NCBI GenBank assembly: GCA_001787585.1
Contig: MFXW01000070.1
Span: forward strand, 1 to 34,252
Reading direction: 5' to 3'
Length of the DNA: 34,252 nt
Source: Candidatus Peribacteria bacterium RIFCSPHIGHO2_02_FULL_53_20
Lineage (GTDB): Bacteria; Patescibacteriota; Gracilibacteria; Peribacterales; Peribacteraceae
Numbering within the stretch: the first letter of the stretch is position 1; each line of letters starts with the position of its first letter. The notes below the pieces were generated by a model. It saw only the letters and a program-made list of their open reading frames with translations, had not been told where the DNA came from and made no database searches. Shown here one piece after another: positions 15,004 to 16,443 of the stretch. The translations under genes were made by a program, and so were the position numbers.

Positions 15004-15561
15004 ATGTCTAAGACTGAAATATATCCAGGTCCGAATTGGCTTATTCAACAGGATTTTCCTGGAAGTACACTGAATGACGAGATGGTGGGGCAATTGCAAA
15101 GCAGACACACCGGCCTAAAGTTAGAATATCTGGCCAGAGATATAAATGCCGCTTGCTCCATGTATCAAAGTACTGCCGCTCAACTACTTAATCCAATGAT
15201 TCGTGGGCGAGGCAAAACAAGAGATTTGGCGCGAACACCAATTCAGGTTATGCCTGTGGATCCGAATGGTGAAGCGCGTTCGTTGCCCATTGAGCAGGGT
15301 ATTCATGATCTACTTTTGCATCGGATTTTTTCTTTGCGAGATCATAACTTTCGAAGCATTTCCATTATTTTAGAATCAGCAATAAAAAGTGCTCGTGCGC
15401 AATATGAACATGCACGATTGGGCTGGGTGCCTGTCGATCAGGATCCTTCAGTTGTATTGTGGAGTAACCCTACGTTAAAAACCCTCGCCGTATATCCTGG
15501 CTCTGGGGATGGAGAGCCTTTCCCTGAGAGTCTTTCACCGTCGTCTTCCATACCACATTGA
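15004..15561 (+). CDS. Hypothetical protein, 185 aa
   Basis: Long ORF with a good upstream promoter candidate; no family recognised. Confidence 0.6.
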   Translation: MSKTEIYPGPNWLIQQDFPGSTLNDEMVGQLQSRHTGLKLEYLARDINAACSMYQSTAAQLLNPMIRGRGKTRDLARTPIQVMPVDPNGEARSLPIEQGIHDLLLHRIFSLRDHNFRSISIILESAIKSARAQYEHARLGWVPVDQDPSVVLWSNPTLKTLAVYPGSGDGEPFPESLSPSSSIPH

Positions 15562-16402
15562 TTCGCACGTCGTAACGACTATCGACTCCGAGTGTTATTT
15601 CCAGGGTCTCATTGGGTTTGAGAGAGACGGGTTCGAGCAGCGGGAGGTAGATCTGTTGCCAGTGCGTGCGTTCGGTGAAGGGGCTGGTGGAGAGGGTAAC
15701 GCCGGGAGCCAGATCGGATTCCCACCATAAGCAAAAACCGTTGCAAGTTGCAGGTTGCAAAAAATGCCATTCAACTTTTGCATGTCGGATTTCTTTGTTG
15801 TGTTTCGTAAAATCAATCCGGTCCCATTCTCTTGTTCCTTCTTTAAGCAGATCCTCCGGGCGGATTTCCTTCACATACATATTGTTCATGGCTACTTCGT
15901 GCGCAGCTTTCCATGTGAAATCTCCTTCGATGCCGGACCATGTATCGATGGTTTGTTGAATGCGATCAAAAATAACCGGAGCAATGAATTGCCGCAATGT
16001 AGAAGGCACCATCGTGCCGCCAGGCTTCAGAAAGCGTTGTGCATCGTTGAGATTCCCGATGATCGATTCTTCCAGTGCGAAGTTGCCGAAAGTTTCGGAG
16101 ATGATGAGATCGACGTTCGGAGGATTCTTCACCTCTGTTGAATGTTTGTGTACGAAATAACAGCTGGTGATGTCGTTTTCTTTGGCAAGTCCACGGCTCA
16201 CATCACTGAGCTCGGAGACTTCGTAGAGATGACATTCTTTCGCACCGAGTTTGCGCGCGAGAAAAGAAAGGTATCCGGTTCCTGCGCCGATATCGGCGAC
16301 GGTGGTGACCCCCGGGACGATCAGTTTTTTCAAGGCATCGGAAAATGCGCGGTTGCGGACGGGGTCTGCCAAGATCACCCGTTGGTATTCGATCAGGGAC
16401 AT
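15470..16402 (-). CDS. SAM-dependent methyltransferase resembling protein arginine methyltransferases (PRMT)
   Basis: MSLIEYQRVILADPVRNRAFSDALKKLI; VADIGAGTGYLSFLARKLGA; double-E-like loop LIISETFGNFALEESII; THW loop TSPFTERTHWQQIYLPL. Confidence 0.8.
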   Translation of the reverse strand: MSLIEYQRVILADPVRNRAFSDALKKLIVPGVTTVADIGAGTGYLSFLARKLGAKECHLYEVSELSDVSRGLAKENDITSCYFVHKHSTEVKNPPNVDLIISETFGNFALEESIIGNLNDAQRFLKPGGTMVPSTLRQFIAPVIFDRIQQTIDTWSGIEGDFTWKAAHEVAMNNMYVKEIRPEDLLKEGTREWDRIDFTKHNKEIRHAKVEWHFLQPATCNGFCLWWESDLAPGVTLSTSPFTERTHWQQIYLPLLEPVSLKPNETLEITLGVDSRYDVRINVVWKTTVKDSQGKALHPQSQDIRRGFLT

Positions 16403-16410
16403 CAAATACA

Positions 16411-16443
16411 TTGTAGAGACGTGCGAATCGCACGTCTCTACAA
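16411..16443. repeat. Palindromic repeat of the GTAGAGACG family, copy B
   Basis: TTGTAGAGACGTGC-GAATC-GCACGTCTCTACAA, perfect 14-bp arms. Confidence 0.9.

Follow-up and report, generated by a model that had tools for sequence, protein, structure and literature searches.

The window, a stretch of 34,252 nucleotides from a Candidatus Peribacterium genome (Patescibacteria), carries on its minus strand a gene for a protein similar to protein arginine methyltransferases (PRMTs). The positions of this gene, its motifs and its flanking features are listed in table 1. Upstream of the start codon the frame stays open to 16558, and this extension is not conserved in relatives. We looked for a signal peptide by eye and saw none. 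The gene is present in a single copy in the host genome, and in close relatives it lies at the identical locus, with PBP1C on one side and RlmH/RlmD on the other. Thus, it does not come from a contaminating contig. When 22 loci were compared, the neighbours differed between genera, and therefore synteny gives no operon clue and points to no pathway.

Two further features adjoin the gene. A palindrome lies immediately upstream of its start codon. The word GTAGAGACG from this palindrome occurred 93 times in 1.13 Mb of host stretches, some of them overlapping, against about 9 occurrences expected under uniform base composition, and paired arms were found at 13 places. The palindrome is thus a candidate dispersed palindromic element or terminator. 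At the other end, an open reading frame (ORF) of 185 amino acids converges on the gene, so that the two 3′ ends overlap by 92 bases. The ORF has no Pfam or NCBIfam match and is absent beside the PRMT-like gene in relatives.

Table 1. Features of the PRMT-like gene and its product, adjoining features, and RG-dense proteins of the same genome
Feature	Position	Strand	Remarks
PRMT-like class I SAM-dependent methyltransferase, 310 aa	15470..16402	-	ATG 16402-16400; stop 15472-15470, included; Pfam PRMT_C/PRMT5_C, PDB profile match, AlphaFold2 pLDDT 91, Foldseek
Helix alphaZ DPVRNRAFSDAL, residues 13-24	16331..16366	-	Asp (PRMT1 D51) and Arg (PRMT1 R54) equivalents; R16 invariant, D13 in 21/22
Motif I DIGAGTGY, SAM-binding loop, residues 37-44	16271..16294	-	D37, G39, G41 and G43 invariant (22/22)
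E61, post-I acidic residue (PRMT1 E100 equivalent)	16220..16222	-	Invariant (22/22)
Double-E loop SETFGNFALEES, residues 102-113	16064..16099	-	E103/E112 = PRMT1 E144/E153 equivalents; both Glu 22/22
Predicted dimerisation-arm region, about residues 145-178, boundaries approximate	15869..15970	-	PRMT_C match 139-273; AlphaFold2 helices 147-152 and 165-172
THW loop ERTHWQQIYLPL, residues 244-255	15638..15673	-	T246, H247, W248 and Q250 invariant (22/22)
Palindrome GTAGAGACGTGCGAATCGCACGTCTCTAC	16413..16441
ORF, 185 aa	15004..15561	+
RNase J, RG-rich N-terminal tail	L149 8011-9924
DEAD-box helicase, C-terminal RGG tail HRGPPRRGGGGGFRGRPQQRGG	L188 6889-8160

Family assignment, fold and conserved residues

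The protein belongs to the PRMT superfamily. It matched the Pfam models PRMT_C (8.4e-12) and PRMT5_C (4.4e-9), both above the curated cut-offs, and PRMT_C was also matched by all of the 22 homologues; in the NCBIfam search, no score came near the cut-offs. In a phmmer search against PDB, the best match was Naegleria PRMT1 (2.7e-23), and all 60 matches listed were PRMTs. A profile of 22 relatives likewise placed Naegleria PRMT1 first (1.6e-40), followed by PRMT8, PRMT6, CARM1, PRMT2, PRMT3, PRMT7, PRMT9, and PRMT5. The two Pfam matches together with the phmmer and profile scores indicate that the three motif strings quoted in an earlier sequence-only reading, all of which are present, are not chance matches. 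Furthermore, the AlphaFold2 model (pLDDT 91, pTM 0.88) was closest in Foldseek to the type I enzymes PRMT6, PRMT1, CARM1, and PRMT2 (TM 0.75-0.82). In this single-chain model, and in line with the PRMT_C matches, a beta-barrel domain with a dimerisation arm follows the Rossmann fold.

PrmA, the ribosomal protein L11 methyltransferase, was rejected as an identity because only the Rossmann part matches (profile positions 156-261 of 296, 28.8 bits). In addition, a full-length PrmA match was absent in the six genomes searched, two of which have no PRMT-like gene. Since no full-length PrmA match was seen in these genomes either with or without the gene, we see no link to PrmA replacement.

The conserved residues were read from an alignment of the 22 homologues (39-80% identity to the window protein; mean column identity 57%), and the pairing with PRMT1 rests on the PDB-match alignments from phmmer and the family profile. 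R54, E100, and D51 follow the usual numbering of PRMT1. E103 and E112 are spaced by nine, as in PRMT1. Loss of the catalytic glutamates in an alignment, which the sequence-only reading had named as grounds to abandon its proposal, was not seen; both glutamates are invariant, as is THW.Q, so that the double-E and THW loops are indeed retained. Around the glutamates, the family has SE[TM][LF]GN..EE.I versus SExMGxxLxxExM in type I PRMTs (PMC8619983), and the window protein agrees with the latter except for M to F/L, L to A, and M to I. The roles of these motifs have been described previously (PMC8619983, PMC8623767, PMC12925635).

The positions that separate PRMT types were also compared. The PRMT1 M48 position corresponds to residue 10, which is I/L/M in the 22 sequences, and the M155 position to residue 114, which is an invariant Ile. 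Thus, the type I trait of Met at both positions was not found in the family. For the type II enzyme PRMT5, we found neither Phe at the M48 position nor PLxxN ahead of position 10. It was reported that PRMT1 M48F permits symmetric dimethylation (PMC8623767).

Helix alphaX with its YFxxY motif is absent from the peribacterial family, whose proteins begin M[IL][ED]...R..L.D..RN; the start M[IL][ED] lies about 12 residues ahead of the aspartate, about where alphaX ends. This N-terminal helix is general in type I PRMTs. In PRMT2, the YFxxY-bearing helix shuts the SAM pocket and touches the second glutamate (PMC12925635). A hidden upstream alphaX was rejected, since the upstream frames are unconserved and several hit stops within a few codons. 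Because alphaX/YFxxY is missing, we file the family as PRMT superfamily and not as type I PRMT. The PRMT signature proposed earlier holds for the double-E loop, THW and R16, and does not extend to the type I helix. The overall identification as a PRMT-like methyltransferase is supported by sequence, motif set, and predicted fold.

Distribution and relationship to other PRMTs

A profile search of 288 genomes found a near-full-length orthologue in at least 41 genomes. Among these 41, 38 fall in the window's own family and the other three in two further families of the class (G249, G520, and G604). The presence is patchy within the window's family, where 20 listed genomes have no PRMT-like gene. 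The frame is intact in almost all genomes, with an internal stop in one of the 41. Meanwhile, the PRMT_C model matched 7 of 380 Patescibacteria genomes, all in the window's class, and the named relatives of the protein are Candidatus Peribacteria and Peregrinibacteria. A literature search of incomplete coverage returned no paper on PRMTs in Patescibacteria, which is weak evidence of novelty. A phage origin was rejected because tblastn against phages gave no match. In IMG/VR, 56 viral contigs (L058-L113) encode distant relatives of the family, with family-profile scores of up to 82 bits.

Arginine methylation of proteins by PRMTs is regarded as a system of eukaryotes, and the sequence-only reading had taken PRMTs to be mostly eukaryotic. 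This statement needs qualifying, since bacterial plasmids also carry PRMT7/9-like, PRMT5-like, and natural-product-cluster PRMT-like proteins. With tblastn, we found eleven distant relatives on plasmids (22-33% identity). The family profile gave at most 100.7 bits on the plasmid proteins versus 142.5 bits on Naegleria PRMT1, and none of the plasmid proteins examined keeps THW (they have TNW, GGW, GHW, HCW, or SW). For instance, a Rhizobium plasmid (L031 4494-5861) encodes a protein that joins TPRs to a PRMT7/PRMT9-like methyltransferase; it is annotated only as a tetratricopeptide repeat protein, and its best PDB matches are PRMT7 and PRMT9. A hypothetical protein on a Pseudomonas aeruginosa plasmid (L039 2956-3717) has its best PDB matches in PRMT5 and contains the loop SEIMGNLGDNE, with the upstream Rossmann part lying outside the ORF. 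On two Streptomyces plasmids (L032 and L035), a PRMT-like gene stands in a conserved row with cupin, DUF3865, GFA, arginine deiminase family, antiporter, and nitroreductase genes. These rows look like an SznF/SznE-type cluster for a natural product with an N-N bond. In addition, Nostoc and Tistrella have PRMT-like domains embedded in NRPS.

Phylogenetic analysis of 36 sequences, including seven eukaryotic rows taken from PDB alignments, placed the peribacterial proteins in one clade (99/100) whose stem is 1.56 changes per column long. The type I eukaryotic PRMTs formed a separate clade (100/100), three bacterial proteins grouped with PRMT7/9 (98/95), and the biosynthetic-cluster PRMT-likes formed their own clade (100/98). 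An open fork (88/76) joins the peribacterial clade with PRMT5-like proteins and with PRMT-likes from NRPS and biosynthetic clusters. This fork favours PRMT5-like and cluster neighbours, whereas the raw profile scores favour type I PRMTs. Since several rows are long-branched, only the monophyly of the peribacterial clade is taken as shown. The phylogeny proposed earlier as a check returned a distinct clade, but not one firmly nearer to protein methylators than to biosynthetic-cluster enzymes. A recent transfer from eukaryotes was set aside because the clade lies outside the type I PRMTs sampled in the seven eukaryotic rows.

In comparison with known enzymes, the type I PRMTs (PRMT1, PRMT6, PRMT8, CARM1, and PRMT2) are the best sequence-profile and structure matches of the family, which shares with them motif I, the post-I Glu, the double-E spacing, the motif III Pro, THW.Q, the PRMT_C barrel, and the arm. 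However, the identity is about 19-26%, alphaX/YFxxY is lacking, the aspartate is followed by RN and not by RT, and the family forms its own clade on a long stem. With PRMT7/PRMT9 and the Rhizobium TPR protein, the family shares the N-terminal motif D..RN and a related methyltransferase core; it differs as a single PRMT module without TPRs and in its separate clade. Its THW is canonical, whereas the Rhizobium protein has GGW and PRMT9 has CW. Like PRMT5, it scores above the PRMT5_C cut-off, and its loop GNFA resembles GSFA of PRMT5. Nevertheless, it lacks a TIM barrel and the Phe at the M48 position, and its THW is intact where PRMT5 has SWF.

Proposed activity and alternative readings

The peribacterial PRMT-like enzyme is real and conserved, and it is probably active, with arginine or guanidino N-methylation as the likely reaction. 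Taking sequence and model together, we consider it reasonably probable that the protein is a cytosolic single-copy enzyme of the PRMT superfamily that would methylate arginine at a terminal guanidino nitrogen with SAM as the methyl donor; this arginine would most likely be part of a peptide or protein. E103 and E112 would hold and orient the guanidinium, as E144 and E153 do in PRMT1, and the protein would dimerise via its arm. The product may be mono- or asymmetric dimethylarginine; a symmetric product would not be expected because the M48 position holds I/L/M where PRMT5 has Phe. With alphaX lacking, the pocket might be more open, or another segment might close it. An enzyme of this kind, a compact single PRMT module with a full guanidinium clamp and no alphaX in hosts with genomes near 1 Mb, would test which parts of PRMTs catalysis needs, and whether the history of the PRMT fold is bacterial. 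At 310 amino acids, the protein is small enough for direct expression and assay.

We infer that the substrate would be protein. A point against this is that the host genome is nearly devoid of RG/RGG tracts. In all contigs of the window's genome (about 1.13 Mb), a search for 40-residue stretches with four or more RG returned only two real proteins, RNase J and a DEAD-box helicase, with the RG in the N-terminal and the C-terminal tail, respectively. Proteome-wide, RG was observed 1281 times against 1535 expected, and RGG 109 times against 114, so neither was enriched. RG-rich tails on both proteins occur whether or not a genome has the methyltransferase. The RNase J tail was rejected as a co-evolving substrate (mean RG about 1.2 with the enzyme versus 1.0 without, counted by hand), and so was the DEAD-box tail as a tracking substrate (1.5 versus 0.95, P = 0.07 ignoring kinship); RGG in the latter tail did not differ. 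As the tails show no clear difference with and without the enzyme, they are possible, but not supported, substrates. Both proteins would belong to RNA decay. We find it quite doubtful that the enzyme represents an ancient bacterial system of protein-arginine methylation, apart from the eukaryotic PRMT radiation and without alphaX, that methylates the RG-rich RNase J N-terminus and DEAD-box C-terminus. Meanwhile, a DDAH/ADI partner was rejected, with no ADI/DDAH-type gene in nine genomes.

The main rival is a small-molecule guanidino N-methyltransferase acting on free arginine or another guanidine metabolite. Such an enzyme is known in Streptomyces, where SznE/StzE, an arginine-guanidino methyltransferase, acts on free L-arginine in streptozotocin biosynthesis (PMC11705231). 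The shared prediction is a bacterial guanidino methyltransferase activity, SznE being represented in our comparison by a stand-in gene that lies in an SznF-like setting on a Streptomyces plasmid. The PRMT-likes in Streptomyces clusters and in the NRPS of Nostoc and Tistrella fit this reading, the tree is compatible with an affinity to cluster enzymes, and a pocket without alphaX could admit small substrates. However, the cluster proteins keep to their own clade and have TNW or HCW where THW is invariant in the peribacterial family. Moreover, the neighbourhoods of the peribacterial gene vary by genus, and at the 22 loci we found no shared biosynthetic neighbours and no NRPS, SznF-like, or other cluster partner. 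We think this reading rather unlikely.

Alternatively, the PRMT fold may have been re-purposed to another acceptor, e.g. a non-arginine protein residue or RNA. The lost alphaX, the double-E loop changed outside its glutamates (M to F/L, Y to N, and M to I), and RG-rich candidate substrates that do not track the gene would agree with this, but invariance of both clamp glutamates and of THW would make little sense if the acceptor were not a guanidinium, and such re-purposing appears improbable. A catalytically dead scaffold or a decaying gene, to which the patchy presence might point, is very improbable given that the gene is full length, nearly always free of internal stops, and invariant at its SAM-binding and catalytic positions.

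A role in a defence system was also considered and rejected. Residues 18-152 of the window protein matched the PADLOC model mad2, a MADS defence protein (7.8e-10); the match is generic, and no further such gene was identified adjacent. In turn, this match hints that mad2 may contain a PRMT-like methyltransferase module.
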